From: Geminicoccaceae bacterium
Lineage (GTDB): Bacteria > Pseudomonadota > Alphaproteobacteria > Geminicoccales > Geminicoccaceae
Assembly: GCA_025062095.1 (NCBI GenBank)
Contig: JANXAZ010000001.1
Coordinates: forward strand, 41,112-105,111
Direction of reading: 5' to 3'
Length of the DNA stretch: 64,000 bases
Shown: positions 12,019 through 24,470 of the stretch, in pieces
Numbering within the stretch: the stretch's first letter is position 1
Layout: the number at the start of each line of letters is the position of its first letter
The notes under the pieces: model-generated
Told to the model about the DNA's origin: nothing
Seen by the model: the letters and a program-made list of their open reading frames with translations, nothing else
Databases searched by the model: none
Translations under genes and position numbers: made by a program

Positions 12019-13146
12019 TCAGCGCTCGAGCTGCAGGCTCGAGAGCCAGAGGAGGATGGCCTCGAGATCCTCGCGCGCGGCGGTGTCCTTCCACGCCGGC
12101 ATCACGAGGCCCGATCGCGTCTGCAGCCGACCTTCGAGGACGGCTCGCCAATAGGTTTCGGGCCAATCCGAGCGATAACGGATGCGCATCCGCCGCAGAT
12201 CGCGCGCCTTGTCCGGGCCCACGGCGTCCGGCCCGTGGCAGTGGGCGCATCCGAGGACGGAATTGAACAGTTCCCGCCCGCGCTCGATCACTTCCGGCGC
12301 CGCGTCGGTCGCGGCCGCGATCGGGACGACGGCGCTCGCTCGCGGCCGGAGATGCCCGTCGCGCGGCCGCGTCGCGGCGGGAAGCCAGTTCCAGGAAATC
12401 GCGTGGTCGTAGCGCAGCCCGTAGGCGCGGGCGATCTCGGCGATCTCGGAACGCATCCGGGCGATCAGCTCGTCGAGCCGATCGCGGAGCTCGCGTTTGT
12501 CGCGCGCCACCCCGACCCCCGCCTGCCAGCGCAAGCGCGGACCGTCGACGCGCACGATGACCAGCCGCGTTCCCGTTTCCTGCTCCACCCGTACCGCTGC
12601 GGGCTCCCAGACGAAGGCGGCATCGGCCTCCCCGCGCAGGAGCGCGCGCACCGCCTCCTCGGGCTGGCGGAAGGTCACGGGTTCGACGCCGGGAAGAGTG
12701 GCGAGCGCGGTCTGGGCCTCGGAGTCGAAAGCGACGGCCACCCGCCCGCCCGCGAGGTCCTCCATGCGCGCGATCCGCGCTCCGGCGGGCAGGACGAGGA
12801 CGTAACCGAGCTCGAGGAGCGGACCCGCGACGAGAAGGCGCGGACCCACGAGCCCTTTCACGAAGGGCAAGCCGAGCATCGCATCGCAGCGATCGGCCAG
12901 GACCGTGAGCCGGATCGCGCGCTTGCCGAGGTCGGTCGGCCACCAGAAGACCCGGAACGGACGGCCGAGGGCACGAGCGAGGCGCTCGCCGACCTCGTAG
13001 AAGACGCCGTGCCGCTCGCCCGAGGCGGAACTCAAGGGCGGGACGTCGGGATCGAGGCAGACGCGGAAGGGTTCCGCCGCTCGCGGCGAAGAAGCGGCGA
13101 GCAGCGCGAGGCAGGCGGCGCAGAGCGAAGCTCGGTATCGATGCAT
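12019..13146 (-). CDS. fused XoxJ-like periplasmic binding protein and c-type cytochrome (XoxG-like)
   Basis: A 375-residue secreted protein. After a signal peptide (about residues 1-24, ending SSPRAA) comes a family 3 solute-binding domain, residues about 25-255. It matches the MxaJ/XoxJ type: it starts with FRVCLDPDVPPLS and includes DRCDAMLGLPFVKG. A short linker leads to a cytochrome c domain: haem site CAHCH at residues 300-304, then GLVMPAW with Met349 as likely axial ligand. In methylotrophs xoxF, xoxG and xoxJ are normally separate genes; XoxG is the electron acceptor and XoxJ binds and probably activates XoxF. Here both sit on one chain. It lies 61 bases downstream of xoxF on the same strand. 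The fusion is direct observation; the electron-acceptor role is inference from family and position. Confidence 0.88.
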   Translation of the reverse strand: MHRYRASLCAACLALLAASSPRAAEPFRVCLDPDVPPLSSASGERHGVFYEVGERLARALGRPFRVFWWPTDLGKRAIRLTVLADRCDAMLGLPFVKGLVGPRLLVAGPLLELGYVLVLPAGARIARMEDLAGGRVAVAFDSEAQTALATLPGVEPVTFRQPEEAVRALLRGEADAAFVWEPAAVRVEQETGTRLVIVRVDGPRLRWQAGVGVARDKRELRDRLDELIARMRSEIAEIARAYGLRYDHAISWNWLPAATRPRDGHLRPRASAVVPIAAATDAAPEVIERGRELFNSVLGCAHCHGPDAVGPDKARDLRRMRIRYRSDWPETYWRAVLEGRLQTRSGLVMPAWKDTAAREDLEAILLWLSSLQLER

Positions 13147-13166: not shown

Positions 13167-13200
13167 AAAAGGCGGGCGGCCGCGCCGCGCGACCGCCCGC
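13167..13200 (-). terminator. intergenic hairpin with short T-run between xoxF and xoxJ-G
   Basis: On the minus strand an eight-base-pair GC stem (13193-13200 with 13172-13179, 13-base loop) is followed almost at once by TTTT (13170-13167). It is too weak in T-run to be a confident terminator. In this position, inside the xoxF - xoxJ-G transcript, it could act as partial terminator or mRNA-stabilising hairpin, setting a higher level of xoxF than of its partner. Confidence 0.35.
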
Positions 13201-13207
13201 GCCGCGA

Positions 13208-14875
13208 TCAGTCGAGGGTGAAGGCGAAAAGCATGCCGCCCGTGGGCTGCGCTTCGATCATCTGGCGGCCGATCTCGCCGAAATGTTGGGGCATGCCGTC
13301 GGAGCGGCCGACCGCGACGACGACGTATTGCTTGCCGCCGACCTCGTAGGTCGCCGGTGCGGCGTGGATGCCGGAGCCGAGTTGCCTCTGCCAGAGGACC
13401 TCGCCGGTCTCGGCGTCGATGGCGCGGAAGAAGCCCTCGTAGTTCCCGGCGAAGACGAGGCCGCCCCCGGTCGCGAGCACCCCGCCGTTGAAAAACCATT
13501 TCTCGGGGATGCCCCAGACCTTTTTGCGCGCGACCGGGTCCCATGCGATCAACTCGCCGAGATGCCCGCCGGGACCGGGTTTGGTCGTGAACTCCTTTCC
13601 GAGGAAGAAGGAGCCACGCTTGTACTCGACCTCGGCATCCTCCATGTCCATGCAGAGATTGTTCGCGGGAATGTAAACGAGCTTGGTGTCCGGGCTCCGA
13701 GCCATGGGCTGCCAGTTCTTGCCGCCGACCAGGTTCGGGCAGATGTCGACGGCTTTCTTGCCGAGACCGGGACGCTTGGCCGGATCTTCGATCGGCCGCT
13801 GCGCGGCGATGTCCCAGCTCTTGGCCCAGTTCGTGTAGACGAAGGGATCGGCCGAGAGCACCTTGCCGTTGGTGCGGTCGACGACGAAGAAAAAGCCGTT
13901 GCGATCGGCCTCGAGGCCCACGGGATCGGGCCGGCCGTCGCCCGTGACGTCGATGTCGACGAGCACCAGCTCGTTGACGCCGTCGTAATCCCAGGCGTCG
14001 TGCGGCGTGCCCTGGAAGCCCCAGACGATCCGGCCGTCGTCGGGATCGACGGCGATCGTCGCCGACGTCCATTTGTTCGAATACTGTCCGAAATCCGGCG
14101 TGTTGGGACCGCGGACGTGCGCGGCCCAGGGCGCGGGATTGGAGGTGCCGAAATAGGCGAGGTCGCGCTCGGGGTCGTAAGAGCCGATCAACCGAACCGT
14201 ACCGCCGCCGTGCTTCCAGGAGTCCCCCTTCCAGGTCTCGTTGCCGGGCTCGCCGGGCCCGGGCACGGTCCGGGTCTTCCACCGCTCTTTACCGGTCTTC
14301 TTGTCGTAGGCGACGATGTAGCCGCGCGCACCGTACTCGCCGCCGCCGAAGCCCGTGATCACCACGTCCTTGACCACGAGCGGCGGCGAGGTGATCATCG
14401 AGCCTTGCTTGTCATCGACGACCTCGACCGTCCATTTCTCCTCGCCCGTCTCGGCGTCGAAGGCGGAAAGCGCCCCGTCCAGACGGCCGACGTAGATCAT
14501 CCCGTCGCTGTACGCGACGCCGCGATTGACGACGGCGCAGCAGGCGTATTGTTGCACGCCCGCCGGCATCTCGAGCTCGACCTTCCAACGGATCGCACCG
14601 GTCGCCGCATCCAGCGCCACGACGTATCGCGGACCGTTGGCGCTCGTGACGAAAAGCGTATCGCCGATCACGAGCGGCGTGCTCTCTTGGCCGAAGGCGT
14701 TGCCCAGCGAGCGCGCCCAGGCGAAGGAGAGCCTCTTGACGTTGTCGCGATCGATGCGGGCGGGCCGGCTGTAATACCATTTCGCGTAGTTGCCGCCGTA
14801 TATCGGCCACTCTTCGTCCATGGCCGGCGCCGGCGTGGAAACGCCCAGCCAGAGGGCGGCACCGGCGACCAGCAC
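13208..14875 (-). CDS. xoxF: lanthanide-type PQQ-dependent methanol/alcohol dehydrogenase, XoxF family
   Basis: Periplasmic quinoprotein that oxidises methanol or related alcohols to aldehyde. Residues below count from GTG 14875 (555 residues). Eight-bladed propeller features are present: the vicinal Cys112-Cys113 disulfide under PQQ (YACCAV), metal ligand Glu180 (GGGE), Asn246 (TSNPAPW), catalytic Asp296 and an extra acidic residue Asp298 in WDYDGVNE. That second Asp is the published mark of lanthanide-dependent enzymes; calcium MxaF enzymes have Ala there. The GTG start gives a signal peptide without a positive n-region and has no nearby ribosome binding site. An in-frame ACG at 14893-14891, four bases after GGGAGG, would give MHKTRIVLVAGAALWLGVST, a complete signal peptide. 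It follows the ABC-2 genes by about 90 bases on the same strand. Confidence 0.93.
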   Translation of the reverse strand: MLVAGAALWLGVSTPAPAMDEEWPIYGGNYAKWYYSRPARIDRDNVKRLSFAWARSLGNAFGQESTPLVIGDTLFVTSANGPRYVVALDAATGAIRWKVELEMPAGVQQYACCAVVNRGVAYSDGMIYVGRLDGALSAFDAETGEEKWTVEVVDDKQGSMITSPPLVVKDVVITGFGGGEYGARGYIVAYDKKTGKERWKTRTVPGPGEPGNETWKGDSWKHGGGTVRLIGSYDPERDLAYFGTSNPAPWAAHVRGPNTPDFGQYSNKWTSATIAVDPDDGRIVWGFQGTPHDAWDYDGVNELVLVDIDVTGDGRPDPVGLEADRNGFFFVVDRTNGKVLSADPFVYTNWAKSWDIAAQRPIEDPAKRPGLGKKAVDICPNLVGGKNWQPMARSPDTKLVYIPANNLCMDMEDAEVEYKRGSFFLGKEFTTKPGPGGHLGELIAWDPVARKKVWGIPEKWFFNGGVLATGGGLVFAGNYEGFFRAIDAETGEVLWQRQLGSGIHAAPATYEVGGKQYVVVAVGRSDGMPQHFGEIGRQMIEAQPTGGMLFAFTLD

Positions 14876-14985: not shown

Positions 14986-15858
14986 TCACTCGGCCTTGCC
15001 GGTACGGGCGGTGAAGCCTCTGACCGGGTCGTAGCCGCGGAAGGCGAGGGCCAGGAAGACGGCGGCCCAGAAGAGCGTCCAGGCGCAATCGCTCGCGGCG
15101 AACTTCTCGTGGAGCGCGAAGCGGATCAGCTCGACCACGTGGGTGAAGGGGTTGAAGGCGCAGATCTCGTACAAGAGCTGCGAGGATTCGCGCACCTGCC
15201 AGAGCGGATAGAGCGCCGAACTCGCGAAGAACATCGGGAAGATCACGAAATTCATCACACCGGCGAAATTCTCGAGCTGGCGCACGACCGAGGAGAGGAG
15301 GAGCCCGAGCGCACCGAGCATGAGCCCGCCCAAGAGAATCGCGGGAAACGCGTAGAGATAGCCCACGAGCGGCGGATCGACCCCGTAGAGGCGGGCGATG
15401 AACAAGAAGACGTAGGCCTGGAGCGTCGCGACGAACACGATGCCCACGAGCTTGGCCGAAAGGAGATACCAGCGCGGCAAGGGGCTGACGAGCAAGACGC
15501 GCATCGAGCCCATCTCCTGATCGTAGACCATGGAGAGGGCGCCCTGCATGCCGGAGAAGAGCAGGATCATGCCCACGAGCCCGGGCGTGATGTAGAGCTC
15601 GTAGAGCACGTAGGTCGTATAGGGCTCCTGAATCGAGACGCCCAAGACGTTGCGGAAGCCGGCGGCGAAGATGAACAGCCACACGAGCGGCCGCACCATC
15701 GCCGAGAAGAAGCGCTCGCGCTGGCCCAGAAAACGCAAGAGCTCGCGCAAGGCCACGACTTCGAGGGCGCGCAGGGCGTGGGCGAGGCGTCCCACGGGGG
15801 GTGGCGCCGACGTCCGGGCGGGGGCGAGATCGGCCAAGAGGCGGCGCTCCGTGCTCAC
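14986..15858 (-). CDS. ABC-2 type transporter permease of the PQQ-alcohol-dehydrogenase cluster (PedC-like)
   Basis: A 290-residue membrane protein with six predicted helices and the ABC-2 signature (MVRPLVWLFIFAAGFRN, VYDQEMGSMRVLLVSPLP, GGLMLGALGLLLSS). It starts at a GTG inside a GTGA overlap with the ATPase gene, so the two form one exporter. ABC-2 systems next to PQQ alcohol dehydrogenases are a recognised association (PedBC-type), but their cargo is not known. It is the last transporter gene before xoxF in the same direction. Export or membrane-related support for the dehydrogenase system is the natural guess; nothing in the sequence shows the substrate. Confidence 0.88.
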   Translation of the reverse strand: MSTERRLLADLAPARTSAPPPVGRLAHALRALEVVALRELLRFLGQRERFFSAMVRPLVWLFIFAAGFRNVLGVSIQEPYTTYVLYELYITPGLVGMILLFSGMQGALSMVYDQEMGSMRVLLVSPLPRWYLLSAKLVGIVFVATLQAYVFLFIARLYGVDPPLVGYLYAFPAILLGGLMLGALGLLLSSVVRQLENFAGVMNFVIFPMFFASSALYPLWQVRESSQLLYEICAFNPFTHVVELIRFALHEKFAASDCAWTLFWAAVFLALAFRGYDPVRGFTARTGKAE

Positions 15859-16607
15859 GAGACCGGCTCCGCGACCGGCGCGTCCTCGGTCAGGCGGCGG
15901 AAGGCGCGGGCGAGATCGCTCTCGCCCGCGCGCGCGAGGACCTCGCGCAGCGAACCCCGGGCCACGACCCGGCCCCGGTGCAGCACGACGAGGCGGTCTT
16001 CGGGCCAGACCTCGTCGACGAGATGGGTCGCCCACAAGGCGGCGATGCCGTGTTCGCGGCACAGGTCGTGGACGTGCTCGACGAGCGCCCGGCGGCTTTC
16101 GATGTCGAGCCCGACGGTGGGCTCGTCGAGGACGAGAAGGCGCGGCTCGTGCAACAGCGCCCGGGCGAGCTCGACGCGGCGGCGCAGGCCGCCGGAGAGC
16201 GCCCGCACCTTGACGTGGCGGCGATCGGCGATGCCCAGCCGCGCGAGCACGGCGTCGATGCGCGCGCGCGCGCGGGCGCGGTCGAGCCCGTAGAGCCCGG
16301 CGGCGTAAGCGAGATTGCGCTCGACCGAGATGTCGAGATCGAGCGTGGGGCGCTGGAAGACCACGCCCATGCAGGCGAGGGCGGAAAGCGGCTCGCGGGC
16401 GAGATCGAAGCCGCAGACGACGATCCGCCCGCGACCCGAGAACAGCCGGGTGACGAGGGCGAGGAGCGTGGTCTTGCCCGCCCCGTTGGGTCCGAGAAGG
16501 GCGGTGAAGCAGCCCTCGGGCGCCTCGAAGGAGACGCGGTCGAGGGCGGGGGCGCCCTTGCCGTAGGCGAAGGAGAGGTTCTCGACGAGAAGGGCCGGGG
16601 CGCTCAT
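15855..16607 (-). CDS. ABC transporter ATP-binding protein of the ABC-2 exporter (PedB-like)
   Basis: A 250-residue ATPase. Walker A GPNGAGKT lies near residue 40, the Q-loop at VVFQRPTLDLD, the signature LSGGLRRRVELARAL near residue 140, and Walker B LLVLDEPTVGLD, followed by a switch histidine in ATHLVDE. This arrangement is typical of ATPases paired with ABC-2 permeases and of the PQQ-associated ABC subfamily. The start ATG overlaps the stop of the upstream NitT/TauT-like ATPase gene (ATGA) and its own stop overlaps the permease start (GTGA). The import and export systems are therefore made from one coupled message. Confidence 0.92.
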   Translation of the reverse strand: MSAPALLVENLSFAYGKGAPALDRVSFEAPEGCFTALLGPNGAGKTTLLALVTRLFSGRGRIVVCGFDLAREPLSALACMGVVFQRPTLDLDISVERNLAYAAGLYGLDRARARARIDAVLARLGIADRRHVKVRALSGGLRRRVELARALLHEPRLLVLDEPTVGLDIESRRALVEHVHDLCREHGIAALWATHLVDEVWPEDRLVVLHRGRVVARGSLREVLARAGESDLARAFRRLTEDAPVAEPVS

Positions 16608-17341
16608 GCGGCCTCGACGGCGAGCGGTTCCGGGCGATCGGGGAGGAGGCGGCGGGCGACCGCCTCGATGCGCGCGAGATCGCGCCGCTCCTCGGGGGAA
16701 AGGGGGACGCGCAGCTCGGCCCGCGGTCGACCCGGGGCGGCGGTGAGGAGCAGGATGCGGTCGGCGAGCATGACCGCCTCGCGCGGCTCGTGGGTGACGA
16801 GCAGGGTGGTCACGGCGTGCCGGGCGAGGAGGTCGAGGAGAAGGAGCCGCAGCCGCCAGGCGGTGGGCTGGTCGAGGGAGACGAAGGGCTCGTCGAGGAG
16901 GAGAAGGCTCGGGCGGACGACGAGCGCGCGGGCGAGCGCCACCCGCCGGGCCATGCCCAAGGAGAGCCGGGAGGCGTAAACCGGGCCGGCATCGGGCAGC
17001 TCGACCTCGGCGAGGGCGGCGTCGATGCGCGCTTTCGCGTCCGCTTCGCCCGCGAGCACGAAGCGCAGGTTGTCTTCGACCGTGCGCCAGGGAAGAAGGC
17101 GCGGCTCTTGGAAGACGAAGGCGAGCCGGCCGGGCGGGCGCTCGATGCGGCCCTCGAACTCGGGATCGAGCCCGGCGACGAGGTTCAGAAGCGTGGTCTT
17201 CCCGCAGCCCGAGGGCCCGAGCACGGCCACCGTCTCGCCCTCGCTCGCGGCGAAGCGGACGTTTTCGAGGACGAGCTTTTCCGGTGCCGCGCCGAGGGCG
17301 GGAAAGCGCTTGCGCACCACGTTCACGCTCAGCGCCGCCAT
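16604..17341 (-). CDS. ABC transporter ATP-binding protein, NitT/TauT/SsuB-like importer
   Basis: A 245-residue ATPase with Walker A GPSGCGKTTLL, the Q-loop FVFQEPRLLPWRTVEDNL, a degenerate signature SLGMARRVALARAL in place of LSGGQ, and Walker B LLLLDEPFVSLD with THEPREAV behind it. The EPRLLPW motif is typical of sulfonate/nitrate/taurine importers. The start at 17341 lies 13 bases inside the permease gene. The Leu-Ser-Leu-Gly-Met signature is a mild deviation seen in this subfamily. It energises the permease and binding protein encoded just upstream. Confidence 0.9.
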   Translation of the reverse strand: MAALSVNVVRKRFPALGAAPEKLVLENVRFAASEGETVAVLGPSGCGKTTLLNLVAGLDPEFEGRIERPPGRLAFVFQEPRLLPWRTVEDNLRFVLAGEADAKARIDAALAEVELPDAGPVYASRLSLGMARRVALARALVVRPSLLLLDEPFVSLDQPTAWRLRLLLLDLLARHAVTTLLVTHEPREAVMLADRILLLTAAPGRPRAELRVPLSPEERRDLARIEAVARRLLPDRPEPLAVEAA

Positions 17342-18135
17342 CGTTCGAGCCTGCGCTGGAGCGGCTGGAAGCCCAGCCATTCGACGAGCTGGACCACGCC
17401 CATGAAGGCGAGGGCGTAGGCGAGCACGGTGGCGACGTCGAAGAGCTGGAAGGCGGAATGGATCTGGAAGCCCACGCCGTTGGGCCGGCCCAGGAGCTCG
17501 ACCACGAGGACGATCTTCCACACCAGAGCCAGGCCCGAGCGGGCGGCGGCGAGAAAATAGGGGGCGAGCTGGGGCAGAACGACGTGCTCGAGGACCGCGA
17601 GCCGCGGCACGGCGAAGACGCGGGCCATCTCGAACAGGCTCTTGTCGAGGGCGCGGGCGCCCTCGCGCACGGTCACGGCGACGTTGGGGATCTTGTTGAT
17701 GGCCACGGCGATCACCGCCGCCGCCTCGACGAGCCCGATCCAGACGTAGCAGAGCACGATCGTGACGAGGGCGGGGAGGTTCAAGAAGAACAACAGCCAC
17801 GGCCGGCCGAGGTCGTCGAGCACCGCCACGCGGCCCATGGCGATGCCGATCGCGGCCCCGACCAGCATGGCGAGGGCGAAGGCCGCGGCCACGCGCAGAA
17901 GCGTCCAGCCGAGGTGGAACAGGAGCTCGCCCGCCACGAGCTCGCGAACGACGGCCTCGAGCACCGAAGCGGGGCCGGGGAACAGCCGCGGTGCGGCGAG
18001 CAGCCACGCCGTGCCCGCCCACAGGCCGAGGAGGAGAAGAACCGAGAGGGGGGCGCGCAGACGGCGCGCTTCGAAGCGCCGCACCCGCTCCGGGCGGGCG
18101 GGTGCGACCGCGGCGGCGAGCTCAGTAGCGGACAA
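17329..18135 (-). CDS. ABC transporter permease, NitT/TauT/SsuC-like importer
   Basis: A 268-residue permease with about six helices and a binding-protein-dependent transport domain. The EAA-type coupling loop is ALDKSLFEMARVFAVPRLAV, and the N-terminal half has the family's FHLGWTLLRVAAAFALAM stretch. It overlaps the binding-protein gene by 14 bases and the ATPase gene by 13, making a tightly coupled three-gene importer. Relatives import sulfonates, nitrate, taurine or pyrimidine precursors. Here the position in a PQQ dehydrogenase operon suggests a role linked to alcohol oxidation. Confidence 0.9.
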   Translation of the reverse strand: MSATELAAAVAPARPERVRRFEARRLRAPLSVLLLLGLWAGTAWLLAAPRLFPGPASVLEAVVRELVAGELLFHLGWTLLRVAAAFALAMLVGAAIGIAMGRVAVLDDLGRPWLLFFLNLPALVTIVLCYVWIGLVEAAAVIAVAINKIPNVAVTVREGARALDKSLFEMARVFAVPRLAVLEHVVLPQLAPYFLAAARSGLALVWKIVLVVELLGRPNGVGFQIHSAFQLFDVATVLAYALAFMGVVQLVEWLGFQPLQRRLERWRR

Positions 18136-19120
18136 GGGGCCAGAAGGTCCCGTCGACGAGGGTCTTGGACTTGCCGACCAGGGCCTCGCCGCCGAGCTCG
18201 GCGAGGATCGCGTAGAGCTTGGCCGCCGCTTGGCGTTCGGCGTCGCCCCAGCGCTCGACGATCCCCTCGCGGTAGCGGTCGCGGAGCATCCGCAGCGTGG
18301 CGTCGTCCTCGGCGCGGGTGAGCGGCCGCAGGCGCTCCCACTCGGCGTCGCTCGTCTTCATGATCGCTTTCGCCGCGCGCGAGGCGCGGGCGAAGGCGGC
18401 GATGCGCTCGGGTGCGGCCTTCGCCCAGCTCTCCTTGAAGATGTAGCCGAGCTGGGGGGTGGAGGCGGGCACGCCCAGGGCCTCCTGGGCCTCGGCCACG
18501 CCGACGACCTTGGGATAGCCCTGGGCCTCGAGCCGGGCGCCGAAGTGCCAATAGACGAGCGCGGCGTCGAGCTCGCCCTGCTTGAGCTTCTCGGAGAGGA
18601 GCGGCGGGGCGCCGTAGACGATCTTCGCCGCCTTGGCGAGATCGAGCCCGTGATCGCGAAGGGCGAGGGCCTGCAGGATGAGCCAGCTCTTGTCGAGGGC
18701 ACCGCCCGCCACTCCGAGCGTCTTGCCGGAAAGATCCGGAAGGGCGCGGATGCCGCGGTCGGGTCGGGCGACGACGAAACCGACGTTGGACGAATACGGA
18801 ATGAACGAGACGAGCACGCCTTCCGCGCGCTGACGGCTGACCCACAGCCAGTCCTCGACGATCACGTCGACCGCATCGCCCAGAAAGGCGACGTTGGCGG
18901 CGTCGTTGGAGGCGAAGGCGGTGACCTCCAGGGTGAACCCCTCTTTCGCGTCGAGCCGGTGGTGTTTGACGACGTCGAGCTCCCAGCTCACCGTGCCGAA
19001 ACGCAAGACCCCGGCGCGGATCGTGCCGAGATCTCCCGCCGCGGCGCTCCAGGCGAACAACAGCAGACACCCGACCAGGACCGTCCCCAGTCCCGGCCGG
19101 CGCGACGACGCTCGAACCAT
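18122..19120 (-). CDS. ABC transporter substrate-binding protein, NitT/TauT-like
   Basis: A 332-residue secreted binding protein with signal peptide (LGTVLVGCLLLFAWSAAAG). The fold signature of the SsuA/TauA/NMT1 class is visible: GTVSWELDVVKHHRLD at the start of domain one, DVIVEDWLWVSRQ, and LSGKTLGVAGGALDKSW at the hinge. The ATG at 19120 is chosen because GGGGGAGGGAGG lies just upstream. It is the first gene of the seven-gene minus-strand arm that ends with xoxF and the xoxJ-G fusion. The ligand is unknown; binding proteins in xox loci have been proposed to handle substrate or metal. Confidence 0.9.
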   Translation of the reverse strand: MVRASSRRPGLGTVLVGCLLLFAWSAAAGDLGTIRAGVLRFGTVSWELDVVKHHRLDAKEGFTLEVTAFASNDAANVAFLGDAVDVIVEDWLWVSRQRAEGVLVSFIPYSSNVGFVVARPDRGIRALPDLSGKTLGVAGGALDKSWLILQALALRDHGLDLAKAAKIVYGAPPLLSEKLKQGELDAALVYWHFGARLEAQGYPKVVGVAEAQEALGVPASTPQLGYIFKESWAKAAPERIAAFARASRAAKAIMKTSDAEWERLRPLTRAEDDATLRMLRDRYREGIVERWGDAERQAAAKLYAILAELGGEALVGKSKTLVDGTFWPLVRY

Positions 19121-19197
19121 GGCGGCCTCCCTCCCCCGCTGTCGCTCAGATGAGACGGGAACCGACGCCTGACAAGGGCGCGGGCGTCCCGAACCGC

Positions 19198-19226
19198 TTG
19201 ACACCCCTCTAAGCGGCGCTTATGGT
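19198..19226 (+). promoter_or_regulatory. sigma-70 promoter with palindrome in the spacer, plus-strand PQQ arm
   Basis: TTGACA (19198-19203) and TATGGT (19221-19226) are separated by exactly 17 bases. The spacer contains the near-perfect palindrome TAAGCGGCGCTTA (19210-19222, arms AAGCG and CGCTT around one G), which touches the -10 box. It is the best promoter in the window and sits 50-78 bases upstream of the cupredoxin-like gene start. The palindrome is placed where a repressor or activator could act; that is inference. Confidence 0.7.
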
Positions 19227-19716: not shown

Positions 19717-20925
19717 ATGGTCCCGCTCCTGCGCAGCTTCGCCCTCTGCCTCTGTTTGGCCCTCTCGTGTTTGGCCCTCTCGGCGGCGGTCGGGCTCGCG
19801 CAGGAGCGGGCCAAGGTCACGCTCGGCTACGTCGGGCTCGAGAACGATCCCCGCCACCGCGAACTCGAAACTTACGCGAACGTGCCCATCCGGCCGGCGA
19901 TCGTGCCTCTGGACGGGGCGGCGGTGGCGATGCGCGACGCCCGCGCCATCGGCCGGGCGATCGGGGTCGAGCTCGTTCTCGAAGCGGTGAGGGCGAAAGA
20001 TCTCGAAGGGGCGCTCGCCGCCGTCGAGCGGCTCGCGGGCGAATTCGGCGCGCGCTTTGTGCTCGTCGATCTGCCGGACGAGATGGTGGCGGAACTCGCC
20101 GCCCGCACCCGCGGCCGCGAGCTCGTCCTCCTCAACGTCTCCGCCCGCGACGACCGCCTGCGGGGCGAGGCCTGCGCGCCGCATCTCTTCCACGTCATCC
20201 CGAGCCGGGCCATGCTCGCCGACGCCCTCGCCCAGCATCTCGCCTTCATGAACTGGCGGGAGGTGCTCCTGCTCGTCGGCCCCGAACCCGAAGACGAGCG
20301 CTGGGGCGAGGCCTTCGCCCGCGCGATCCGCCGCTTCGGCGGCAGGATCGTCGACACCCGCCGCTTCGTCTCGGGCCGCGATCCGCGCCAGCGGGAGCAG
20401 AACAATCCGCGTCTGCTCACCCAGGGCATCCACTACGACGTGGTCGCGATCGCCGACACGGACGGCGAGTTCGGCCGCCTGTTGCCCTATCAGACGGTGC
20501 TGCCGCGACCCGTCGTCGGCACGCACGGTCTCGTGCCCGTGGCCTGGCACTGGGCCTACGAGCGGCAGGGGGCGCCGCAGCTCGAACAGCGCTTCGAGCG
20601 CTCGCTGCCGGTGCCGCGCAAGATGACGGATCCCGAGTTCGCCGCTTGGGCGGCGATCCGCGCCGTGCTCGACGCCATGGCGCGGGCGCGTTCGGCCGAG
20701 TTCGCCAAAGTGCGCGCGGCGCTCCTCGACCAGAACGCGACGATCGATCTCTACAAGGGCGCGCCCGGCACCTTCCGGCCGTGGGACCGGCAGCTGCGCC
20801 AGCCGATCTTGTTGGGCACCAACGACGCGGTGATCGGGCGGGCCCCTTACGAGAAGTTCCTCCACCAGCGCAACACTCTGGATACGCTCGGAGTCGACGA
20901 GCCGGAGAGCCGCTGCCGCGGATGA
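19717..20925 (+). CDS. periplasmic binding protein of the PQQ-dependent alcohol dehydrogenase system
   Basis: A 402-residue protein with signal peptide ([16 protein letters not shown]) followed by a type I periplasmic-binding fold like branched-chain amino acid receptors. It matches the family of ABC-type binding proteins found only with PQQ alcohol dehydrogenases: [14 protein letters not shown] near the start, [19 protein letters not shown] in the centre, and [15 protein letters not shown] with [19 protein letters not shown] near the end. No cognate permease is adjacent; it may serve the ABC-2 system of the opposite arm. It lies 24 bases after the cupredoxin-like gene and about 118 bases before the second dehydrogenase. 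Confidence 0.88.
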
Positions 20926-21043
20926 GGTTCGGGACGAGAGGTCGCAGCCTCGATTGAGCTCTTGCTCAAGTACCGCTCGGCGGCTAACCACCCCCGCGGA
21001 CTTCTTCCGGTCAGAGGAGAGCCGGGGCCGTCGGGGAGGCGCG

Positions 21044-22759
21044 ATGGAGCGCAAGACAGTCCTTCTTCGCTTCGCGGCCGTGCTCGCGGGAGCGTCGATC
21101 GCTTCGCTCGCGTCGTCGGAAACACACGCCCAGACGATCAAAGGGACGCACCTCCCGGCCGATCTGCGCATCGTGACCCAGCGCATGCTCGATCTGGCCG
21201 AAGGCGACGGCAACAATTTCCTCCATCCCAATCACAATTACAAACAGACGCGTTTTTACCCCAACGCCCAGATCAACACCGCCAACGTCCGCCGGCTGCG
21301 TCCGGCCTGGTTGTTCCAGGTCGACGTGCGCGAGTCCCTCGAGACGACGCCGATCGTCGTCGACGGCGTGATGTACGTCACGACCGCCTACAACCACGTC
21401 TACGCGATCGACGCCGCGACCGGCGAACAGATCTGGCACTACAAGCACAGGATCGGGCCCATCACCGCCTATTGCTGCGGACCGAACAACCGCGGCGCGG
21501 CGGTGTACGACGACCTTTTGTACATGGGCACGCTCGACGCCAAGCTCGTGGCGCTCGACGCCAAGACCGGCAAGCTCGTGTGGGAGACCCAGGTCGCCGA
21601 TCCCGAACTCGGCTATTCCGAGACCATGGCGCCGGTGGTCGTGGAGAACAAAGTGCTCATCGGCACGAGCGGCGGCGAATACGGGATCCGCGGCTTCCTC
21701 AAGGCCTTCGACGCGAAGACCGGCAGGCTCTTGTGGACCTTCTACACCACGCCCGAGAACTCGGTCGGGGTGTGGGCGACGAAAGACGCCACCGGCAAGG
21801 ATCTGCGCCGCGACATCGCGAAAGAGAAGGAGATCCTGGCCAAGATCGGCGATCCCTACCGCTGGCTCGGGGGACCGGTGTGGCAGACGCCGGCGGTCGA
21901 TCGCGTCCGACGGAAGGTCTTCTTCGTCGTCGGCAATCCGGCCCCGCCGCTCGACGACTCCCAGCGTCCGGGGGACAATCTCTACACGAACAGCCTCGTG
22001 GCCATCGATCTCGACACCGGTCGCTACCACTGCCACCTGCAGTACGTCCCGCACGACCGCTGGGACATGGACGCGGTCAGCCCGCCCGTGCTCCTCGACG
22101 CGCCGGACGAGACCGGCAAGATCGTCCCCGCGGTCCTGCACGCCGGCAAGACCGGATACGTCTACGTGCATCGGCGCGAGGACTGTTCGCTCATCCGTTA
22201 TTCCGAGCCGATCGTGCCCCAGGAGAACATGTGGGCCCCGCCGACGCCCGAAGGCACGCGCATGGCTCCGGGTGCCAACGGCGGCGTGGGCTGGTCGCCG
22301 GTGGCCGTCCACCCCGGTCTCGGCCTCGTCTACGCCCTCGCCATCCACCAGCCGATGACCTTCCACCTGCAGAGCTCGCCCTATCCCGGGGGCAAGCTGT
22401 GGCTGGGCGGCGCTTTCCGCGTCTCTCCCGCCGACGAGCATTGGGGGGCGCTCGTGGCCGTGGACTACAGGACCGGGGCGATCCGCTGGGAGGTCAAGAC
22501 GCCGCAGCCGCTCCTCGGGGGCGCGCTCGCCACCGCGGGCGGGCTCGTGTTCTTCGGCGAGGGCAACGGTCGCTTCAACGCCGTGGACGCGGCGACGGGC
22601 GCGCGGCTGTGGAGCTTCCAGGCGGGGGCGGGGGTGAACGCGCCGCCCGCGAGCTACACGGTCGACGGCAAGCAGTACATCGCCGTCGCGGCGGGCGGCA
22701 GCGCGCAGCTGGACTTCAAACGCGGCAACGCCATCATCGCCTTCACGCTGGTCGAATGA
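21044..22759 (+). CDS. second PQQ-dependent alcohol dehydrogenase, lanthanide-type
   Basis: A 571-residue periplasmic quinoprotein. The ATG at 21044 is preceded by GGGGAGG and opens a signal peptide (residues 1-30). Active-site features: vicinal Cys144-Cys145 (YCCGPNNRG), Glu212 (SGGEYG), Asn298 (VGNPAPP), catalytic Asp341 and acidic Asp343 in RWDMDAVS. The Asp-x-Asp pair predicts lanthanide use, as in XoxF, ExaF and PedH. The overall sequence is closer to ethanol/2-phenylethanol-type enzymes than to the XoxF at 13208, for example in the [18 protein letters not shown]-terminus and the [11 protein letters not shown] blade. Its electron acceptor is probably the dihaem cytochrome encoded 39 bases downstream. 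Confidence 0.93.
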
Positions 22760-22798: not shown

Positions 22799-23437
22799 AT
22801 GACGGTAGCGATGCGGACGTCGAAGGGTTGGTTCGCGGGCCTCGTGGTCGCGGCCGCGCTCGGCTCGGGCGAGGCCGCGCAAGGGCAGGAGATGCGACCG
22901 CGGGCGGCGCAGCCCGCTCCGGAGATCCCGCTCTCCGAGCGGCTCGCCGAACTCGTGCCGACCTGTCTCGCCTGTCACGGCGAGGACGGTGTGCCCAATT
23001 ACGCCGAATCGCCGATCGTGGACGGGCAGAACGAAGGATATCTGTTCGTGCAGCTGCGCGACTACAAGAACGGGGCGCGCAAGCACGAGGCGATGAACGA
23101 AATCGTCAAGGATCTTTCGCGGCAGGATCTGCGCGAGCTCGCCGCTTATTTCGCCGCGCGCCCCTGGCCGCGCGTCGATCAGCCCCCGCCCGAAGACGGG
23201 TCGATCGACGTCGAACGGCTCCTGGCCGAGGGCCAGTGCCGCGAATGTCACGGCGCCGATTTCCTGGGCGACGGCACGATGCCGCGCCTGGCGGGCCAGC
23301 TCACCTCCTACCTCGCGAGCACCATGCGCGCCTTCAAGCTCAAGGAGCGCACGAACAACGCCGCCATGGGCTCGCTCCTCGACACTTTCTCGGACGAAGA
23401 GATCGAGGCCATTGCCCGCTATCTGGGCGCGCTCTGA
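22799..23437 (+). CDS. dihaem c-type cytochrome (c4-like)
   Basis: A 212-residue exported protein with two haem-binding sites: CLACH at residues 56-60 and CRECH at 147-151. Met99 and Met161 (TMPRLAGQ) are candidate axial ligands. The two-domain layout resembles cytochrome c4. A signal peptide covers about residues 1-29. It follows the second PQQ dehydrogenase by 39 bases and is its likely electron acceptor, passing electrons on to a terminal oxidase. An in-frame ATG at 22811 is an alternative start. The last 19 bases overlap the convergent ankyrin gene. Confidence 0.9.
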   Translation: MTVAMRTSKGWFAGLVVAAALGSGEAAQGQEMRPRAAQPAPEIPLSERLAELVPTCLACHGEDGVPNYAESPIVDGQNEGYLFVQLRDYKNGARKHEAMNEIVKDLSRQDLRELAAYFAARPWPRVDQPPPEDGSIDVERLLAEGQCRECHGADFLGDGTMPRLAGQLTSYLASTMRAFKLKERTNNAAMGSLLDTFSDEEIEAIARYLGAL

Positions 23438-24342
23438 GCCTTCCGCCCGTCCGCGGCGGCGGAGAGCTCGGCCAGGCCGAACCCGAAGCGGTCGCGCACG
23501 GCCGGATCGGCCCCCGCGCGCAACAGCAGCGCGACGATCGCGCGATGGCCGCGCTCGGCGGCGATCAGAAGCGCCGTGCGGCCGCGATCGTCCGCGAGGT
23601 CGACCGTGGCGCCGCGCTCGACCAGGAGCTTCACGGTCGCGAGGCCTTCCGCCTCGGGCACGTCGTCGCCGTGCCCGGCCGCCCACATCAGCGCCGTGAG
23701 CCCGTGGCCGAAGCGGGTGTCGACGGGCACCCCGGCATCGAGGAACCGGTGCACGATCGCGCGGTGGCCGCGGGCGGCGGCGTAGACGAGCGGCGATTTG
23801 CCGGTCGCGTCCACGGCCAGGGGGTCGGCGCCGCGGGCGAGCAGGAGCTCGACGAGGGGCGCGTTTCCGTTGAAGGCGGCGGCGGCGAGCGGGGTGACGC
23901 CGCTCCGGCCCGGCTGGTCGGCCGGCACGCCCCGTTCGAGGAGGAACCGCGCGACCGCCGTCCGGTCGAACTCGGCGGCGAGGAAGAGCGGGGTGGCGCC
24001 GTCGAGGCTGCGGACCGTCGGATCGGCTCCCGCTTCCAACAACACGCGCGCGACCTCGACCGCGCCGGCGCGGGCGGCCTTGTGCAGCGCCGTCTCCCCG
24101 CGCCCGTCGCGGGCGCGGGGCGAGGCGCCGCGCGCGAGACGCTCGCGCACGAGCGCGGGGCAACCTTTCTCGGCGGCGCGGAAGAGCTCGTGGTCGAGCC
24201 GGTGTCGCTCCTCCGCCGGATGGATCAGCAACTCGCGGGCGAGCCGGTCGCACACCCGCTCCGCGGCCGCGGCCCCGGGTACCGCGGCGAAGAGGAGCAG
24301 GGCGGCCGTGGCCTTCGCGATCGCGTGGTGCGGCATCCGCAT
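23419..24342 (-). CDS. secreted ankyrin-repeat protein inside the PQQ locus
   Basis: A 307-residue protein. The ATG at 24342 opens a signal peptide (AALLLFAAVPGAAAA); the longer frame from 24420 lacks one. About seven ankyrin repeats follow, with units such as GETALHKAARAGAVEVARVL and RTALLIAAERGHRAIVALLL; the sixth carries a ten-residue insertion. Ankyrin repeats bind other proteins, so a periplasmic scaffold or inhibitor for the neighbouring oxidation proteins is plausible but not shown. It is the only minus-strand gene in the plus-strand arm: it overlaps the cytochrome gene tail-to-tail by 19 bases and is divergent from the propeller gene. Confidence 0.88.
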   Translation of the reverse strand: MRMPHHAIAKATAALLLFAAVPGAAAAERVCDRLARELLIHPAEERHRLDHELFRAAEKGCPALVRERLARGASPRARDGRGETALHKAARAGAVEVARVLLEAGADPTVRSLDGATPLFLAAEFDRTAVARFLLERGVPADQPGRSGVTPLAAAAFNGNAPLVELLLARGADPLAVDATGKSPLVYAAARGHRAIVHRFLDAGVPVDTRFGHGLTALMWAAGHGDDVPEAEGLATVKLLVERGATVDLADDRGRTALLIAAERGHRAIVALLLRAGADPAVRDRFGFGLAELSAAADGRKAQSAPR

Positions 24343-24470
24343 CAGCGCCTTTCGCCGCGCGCATCCCGGCACGGTCGCGTGCCGCGGTTCGCAATCGGAG
24401 AGGCTTTTCTCGTCCCTCATCGTGTCTTATGTCCTCTATTCGATACGGTTATGACCGAGGGGAGGCGTTC

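Follow-up and report, generated by a model that had tools for sequence, protein, structure and literature searches.

Fusion of a J-type binding domain to a cytochrome c, paired with one clade of PQQ-dependent alcohol dehydrogenases in Geminicoccaceae and other Pseudomonadota

It is debated by what mechanism XoxJ and MxaJ act, and when and where they do so relative to the cytochrome partner. The two proteins were proposed to open the apo-enzyme for PQQ and the metal (PMC12997753). The closest described case in which a J-type domain and a cytochrome share one chain is the cytochrome cGJ of Methylacidiphilum, a XoxG:XoxJ fusion (Versantvoort et al., 2019, described in PMC8498564, PMC6688271, and PMC8170126). 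Cytochrome cGJ takes electrons from XoxF (PMC8498564) and is named in the order of G followed by a truncated J, for which a docking role was proposed (PMC6688271), and the fusion is termed exceptional (PMC8170126).

A protein with the same two kinds of domain in the order J-G was identified in a stretch of 64,000 nucleotides from the genome of a hot-spring member of the Geminicoccaceae; this stretch is called the window in the following. A literature search returned no mention of Geminicoccaceae with xoxF or methanol dehydrogenase, and no paper on a MxaJ fusion was found in it.

The fusion gene and its two halves

The gene encodes the following features:

12019 to 13146, minus strand: J-G fusion protein of 375 amino acids, with the ATG at 13146 and the stop codon ending at 12019; signal, J domain, linker, and cytochrome c
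13069 to 13146, minus strand: probable Sec signal peptide, residues 1-26, predicted from the sequence and a predicted helix at 3-17
12397 to 13068, minus strand: J-type (MxaJ/XoxJ-like) periplasmic binding domain, about residues 27-250, from TIGR03871, pLDDT, and Foldseek
12304 to 12378, minus strand: variable and probably flexible linker, about residues 257-281, with a pLDDT below 50 at 257-280
12019 to 12288, minus strand: single-haem cytochrome c domain, residues 287-375, from PF13442 (2.7e-8) and CAHCH at 300-304

The open reading frame contains no internal stop codon and has exactly the coordinates of the earlier note, which did not mention that it is on the minus strand. The J-type binding domain is at the N-terminus and the cytochrome at the C-terminus, with about 25 linker residues in between. 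The single chain of 375 residues with a J-type domain and a CAHCH cytochrome, as described in the earlier note, was confirmed by the frame and by the domain search, and J and G are indeed usually encoded by two genes. The N-terminus consists of an n-region with arginine, a hydrophobic core, and A-A preceding EPFRV, and the fusion protein is predicted to be exported or secreted.

In the family-model scan, residues 27-243 match TIGR03871 (ABC_peri_MoxJ_2, E 5e-22) at model positions 2-228 of 232, and the J half also matches TIGR03870 (MoxJ, E 2e-9). MoxJ_2 is the top NCBIfam model for this half, far ahead of other binding-protein models. The score of the window protein is 79 bits and thus lies below the curated cut-off of 212; fused J domains as a whole reach 76-112 bits, and the genome's own XoxJ reaches 300. 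The name XoxJ, given to the N-terminal half in the earlier note, therefore stands as the best family and for a full-length domain, but is only distantly supported by the score. Judged by these matches, the fused J is a clear but distant, full-length relative of XoxJ, which could have lost a chaperone role or could bind a small ligand.

Residues C30 and C87 are invariant in the fused J domains, and the pattern RVCxDP...C is also present in canonical J proteins. A structure model was built with AlphaFold2 on an alignment of eight rows and without haem, and in it the J half takes a confident binding-protein fold with a pLDDT above 80 over most of the domain. Foldseek matched this half to XoxJ (6onp, E about 3e-12, TMt 0.76), a fold match which is not specific to XoxJ, and to MxaJ (5sv6), amid many amino-acid-binding proteins with similar scores.

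In the J tree, 12 of the 13 fused J domains fall into one clade (support 96/90) and the one from G717 falls outside. The fused J domains and J proteins from Bacteroidota form a group (83/87) that excludes the canonical J proteins. The data neither reject (AU p 0.39) nor demonstrate that all fused domains form one clade, and with it a single origin of all 13 fusions. In the sister genus of the window's genus, a third and divergent J-type protein is encoded near another PQQ dehydrogenase (G017:C26:40571-41179 and G016:C530:1048-1701).

The cytochrome half matches Cytochrome_CBB3/Cytochrom_C (PF13442) with residues 287-371 at an E of about 3e-8, above the cut-off of Pfam. Each aligned fusion has one CXXCH, and the motifs CXXCH, DLR, RY, GR, and MPxW are conserved without exception across the alignment; M349 in MPxW is the probable sixth haem ligand. 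This half is poorly modeled, with a pLDDT mostly below 50, which is to be expected because the model was built without haem and from few sequences. The models of cL/MoxG (TIGR03872) and of the 4-Cys type (TIGR03874) gave zero matches in any fusion scanned, and the nearest models are PedF c550, ccoP, and cytochrome c6, with the PedF-type c550 being the closest. Membership in XoxG/cL was rejected on this basis, and the label XoxG-like of the earlier note is not supported in the strict sense.

The same fusion was sought in other genomes, and with those it is present as an unbroken chain in 13 genomes, which belong to four families in two classes of the Pseudomonadota. The named relatives of the window's genome are metagenome-assembled genomes of Geminicoccaceae, and one genome with the fusion is complete (KatS3mg117, AP024683.1, Geminicoccaceae). 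Within the window's genus all six genomes searched carry it with an identity of 68-75%, and in the sister genus two of three genomes do so with an identity of 55%. Profile searches additionally revealed full-length fusions in G100, G460, and G578 from a third alphaproteobacterial genus in a further family, in G506 from yet another alphaproteobacterial family, and in one genome from another class (G717). In a plasmid collection the full-length fusion was not found, and two matches to J only were obtained. The linkers of the 13 fusions differ in length and sequence, with the frame being open throughout. Since this applies to 13 genomes including a complete one, which is far more than chance would produce, a missed stop codon or a frameshift near the junction, for which the earlier note had allowed, is excluded. 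The fusion is real and old.

The adjacent dehydrogenase and its pairing with the fusion

Upstream of the fusion gene, the following features are located:

13172 to 13200, minus strand: terminator-like hairpin of 13 bp, GC-rich and followed by TTTT, in the gap between dehydrogenase and fusion
13208 to 14875, minus strand: PQQ-dependent alcohol dehydrogenase of 555 amino acids, from TIGR03075 (614 bits), tree, motifs, and co-occurrence
14986 to 16062, minus strand: PedC-like ABC permease (TIGR03861), from a family match, context only
15855 to 16607, minus strand: ABC ATPase associated with PQQ alcohol dehydrogenases (TIGR03864), from a family match, context only
16604 to 19204, minus strand: NMT1/taurine-type ABC transporter consisting of an ATPase, a permease (17329-18135), and a binding protein (18122-19204), from family matches, context only

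The fusion gene lies directly downstream of a PQQ alcohol dehydrogenase gene on the same strand in 12 of 12 loci whose contig includes the upstream gene; in the remaining one of the 13 loci, L030, the contig starts shortly before the fusion gene. A profile of the dehydrogenase clade was run on 398 Pseudomonadota genomes and yielded six scores of 990-1101 bits, with the next best at 554. The six high scorers are the same six genomes that contain the fusion, and none of the 398 carries one without the other. Because of this exact match, the dehydrogenase clade and the fusion are regarded as a unit. In distant loci, only the dehydrogenase and J-G are conserved together. The PedC-like, PQQ_ABC_ATP, and NMT1 transporter genes recur beside the pair only within the window's own genus (Geminicoccaceae genus g1). 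In one draft locus (L028, SKYG96, 997-2709) an intact fusion is preceded by a dehydrogenase gene that is split into two frames, due to either an error or decay.

The dehydrogenase shares 38-43% identity with the XoxF, MxaF, PedH, and type II qhADH references (about 39% with the XoxF of AM1), and its top PDB match is XoxF (4MAE). All 15 clade members checked contain WDYDGVN, the lanthanide DxD motif, and an adjacent cysteine pair. The second aspartate is absent from MxaF (WDYAGVN) and from type II qhADH. Going by the DxD motif as the sole basis, the enzyme is probably lanthanide-dependent, with an alcohol as its presumed substrate. In an IQ-TREE phylogeny, in which not every XoxF clade is represented by a reference sequence, the fusion-linked dehydrogenases and their homologs from Bacteroidota form a clade (100/99) that is sister to the clade of XoxF and MxaF (100/100). 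The neighboring gene, called XoxF in the earlier note, thus codes for a real PQQ dehydrogenase with the lanthanide aspartate, but belongs beside XoxF and MxaF rather than among them.

A true XoxF5 was found elsewhere in the same genome, on contig C132 (L098, G000), with 999.6 bits and an identity of 73% to the XoxF of AM1. Its locus encodes XoxJ (300 bits) and XoxG as two separate proteins; the latter is of the 4-Cys type and reaches 142.6 bits with TIGR03874, slightly below the cut-off of 161.75. The tree and this XoxF5 led to the rejection of a true XoxF as the partner of the fusion. The occurrence of the three-gene XoxF5-XoxJ-XoxG system and the two-gene dehydrogenase and J-G system in one cell is a built-in control. 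Regarding the supply of the cofactor, pqqC was detected in six of the eight fusion genomes checked, including the window's genome. G017 and G717 contain the fusion and its dehydrogenase and gave no match to pqqC, so that PQQ may have to be taken from outside or made differently, or the enzyme may not use PQQ there, which counts against the proposed function.

The window's hairpin between the two genes does not by itself exceed shuffled sequences (z -0.46) because the DNA is so GC-rich. Hairpins of differing sequence are located at the same position in eight loci, the window's included, and strong ones were found in G100 (z -7.3), G460 (z -4.2), and G506 (z -4.7). No hairpin was found in g11, G578, and G717, where dehydrogenase and fusion are 8-17 nt apart. 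The recurrent position suggests an attenuation of the transcript between the enzyme and its partner, and it is plausible that a partial terminator results in more dehydrogenase than J-G. The fixed ratio of 1:1 proposed in the earlier note consequently holds for J to G, because both halves are fused in one chain, but probably not for dehydrogenase to J-G, given the terminator-like hairpin in eight loci.

A second PQQ alcohol dehydrogenase is encoded further along the window on the plus strand (20954-22759). It scores just above the cut-off of TIGR03075, resembles the acido-empty-quinoprotein model, has WDMDAV instead of WDxDGxN, and sits on a long branch in the tree. It is preceded by a PQQ_ABC_bind protein (19717-20925) and followed by a diheme PdsA-like cytochrome (22799-23437). 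An ankyrin-repeat protein (23419-24420, minus strand) adjoins the PQQ cluster, as it also does in KatS3mg117 (L100).

Proposed function and alternatives

J-G is likely to be a secreted and dedicated partner of the upstream lanthanide-type PQQ alcohol dehydrogenase, sister to XoxF and MxaF, which it would serve both as a maturation factor and as an electron acceptor. By analogy with XoxJ and MxaJ, the J half would bind the apo-dehydrogenase and help to load PQQ and the metal. The cytochrome half would accept two electrons, one at a time, from reduced PQQ and hand them on toward a terminal oxidase, while the linker would hold the haem near the enzyme bound by J. Dehydrogenase and J-G would in this way form a two-gene cassette apart from the XoxF5-XoxJ-XoxG system of the same genome.

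The J half might instead be a docking module only, which holds the cytochrome on the dehydrogenase and leaves the maturation to the XoxJ of the XoxF5 locus. This is rather unlikely, though it would agree with the divergence of the fused J (79 bits), with the finding that seven of nine fusion genomes checked encode a further MoxJ-type protein whose score exceeds the cut-off, and with the docking role proposed for XoxG:J (PMC6688271). However, no MoxJ-type protein other than the fused J was detected in the genomes G578 and G717, and the domain is full-length with two conserved cysteines, not truncated.

It is improbable that the J half merely binds a substrate, e.g., as an amino acid or alcohol sensor or as the feeder of the neighboring ABC importer, with the cytochrome as a passenger and without a role in maturation. 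Its generic SBP_bac_3 fold, the many amino-acid-binding proteins that score alike in Foldseek, and the NMT1-type importer and PedC-type transporter upstream in the window speak for this reading, and the lead of MoxJ_2 over other binding-protein models speaks against it. Moreover, the importer genes include one for a binding protein, and in distant genomes the fusion is always accompanied by the dehydrogenase but not by the importer. A role in ligand import tied to the neighboring ABC genes was rejected, as these neighbors are not conserved with the pair.

It is very improbable that the fusion combines XoxJ and XoxG proper, as the partners of a XoxF that acts as a lanthanide methanol dehydrogenase: the DxD motif, the cysteine pair, the PDB match to 4MAE, and the content of J and G would fit, but the dehydrogenase lies outside of XoxF and MxaF in the tree at only 38-43% identity to XoxFs, and the XoxF5 of the genome has its own separate J and G. 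An assembly error that joined two genes has a negligible probability and is refuted as an artefact by the same open frame in 13 independent genomes, one of them complete, even though the relatives are mostly draft metagenome assemblies.

For the reading of J-G as maturation factor and electron acceptor, the fusion has a practical side, as a natural full-length J fused to a cytochrome makes loading and electron removal testable together or apart in a single protein, and in some genomes the fused J is the only J. Furthermore, the dehydrogenase clade beside XoxF and MxaF carries the lanthanide motif and no characterized member of it was found, which makes it a lead for new lanthanide enzymes from hot-spring and other bacteria; the fusion also bears on the question of how J and G come to be joined repeatedly. 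The full picture, namely a two-gene lanthanide-type system with a distinct dehydrogenase clade, a tethered J-G that is independent of cGJ and reverse to it, and an excess of dehydrogenase set by the hairpin, could equally well prove right or wrong as a whole.

Comparison with known systems

As in XoxF-XoxJ-XoxG and MxaFJGI, a dehydrogenase, a MoxJ-type protein, and a c-type cytochrome are encoded together, and DxD is present as in XoxF. Unlike there, where J and G are separate, they are fused here, and the enzyme clade, the J score, and the cytochrome family differ. In Mesorhizobium relatives of the XoxF/MxaF clade, the genes for the dehydrogenase, J, and cytochrome follow one another, and the last two overlap by four bases. 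The fusion probably arose from adjacent J and G genes of an F-J-G operon, in which the loss of a stop codon would give J-G.

The PedH/ExaF systems (ethanol dehydrogenase) with PedF (c550) and PedG have the lanthanide DxD motif in common with the present one. PedF ranks high among the family matches of the cytochrome half, and the PedC-like and PQQ_ABC_ATP genes adjoin the dehydrogenase in the window. However, PedH/ExaF forms a separate clade in the tree (about 41% identity), and PedF and PedG are separate proteins.

Three Bacteroidota loci (L034, L036, and L037) encode dehydrogenases of the same clade (46-50% identity) with a homologous J directly downstream and a homologous cytochrome domain within the locus. 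Unlike in the fusion, J and the cytochrome are encoded separately, at a distance of several kb, and the cytochrome is diheme with two haem motifs. A scan of 296 Bacteroidota genomes with the dehydrogenase profile (E 1e-170) matched only the starting genome, so the clade is rare in Bacteroidota.

From cGJ of Methylacidiphilum, the J-G fusion is already known as an idea. Both proteins unite a c-type cytochrome with a J-type domain in a single chain, and both are encoded next to a lanthanide-type PQQ dehydrogenase. They differ in the order of the domains, which is J-then-G here and, following the notation of the papers, G-then-J there; in the J, which is full-length here and truncated in Methylacidiphilum; in the partner, which belongs to a non-XoxF clade here and is a true XoxF there; and in the operon, which contains a separate xoxJ in Methylacidiphilum, whereas no separate J is found at the locus described here. 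Because of the different domain order and the different dehydrogenase clade, the two fusions are probably independent in origin. New in the present case are the reverse order with a full-length J, the different dehydrogenase clade with a strict one-to-one pairing, and the occurrence in two classes of Pseudomonadota.
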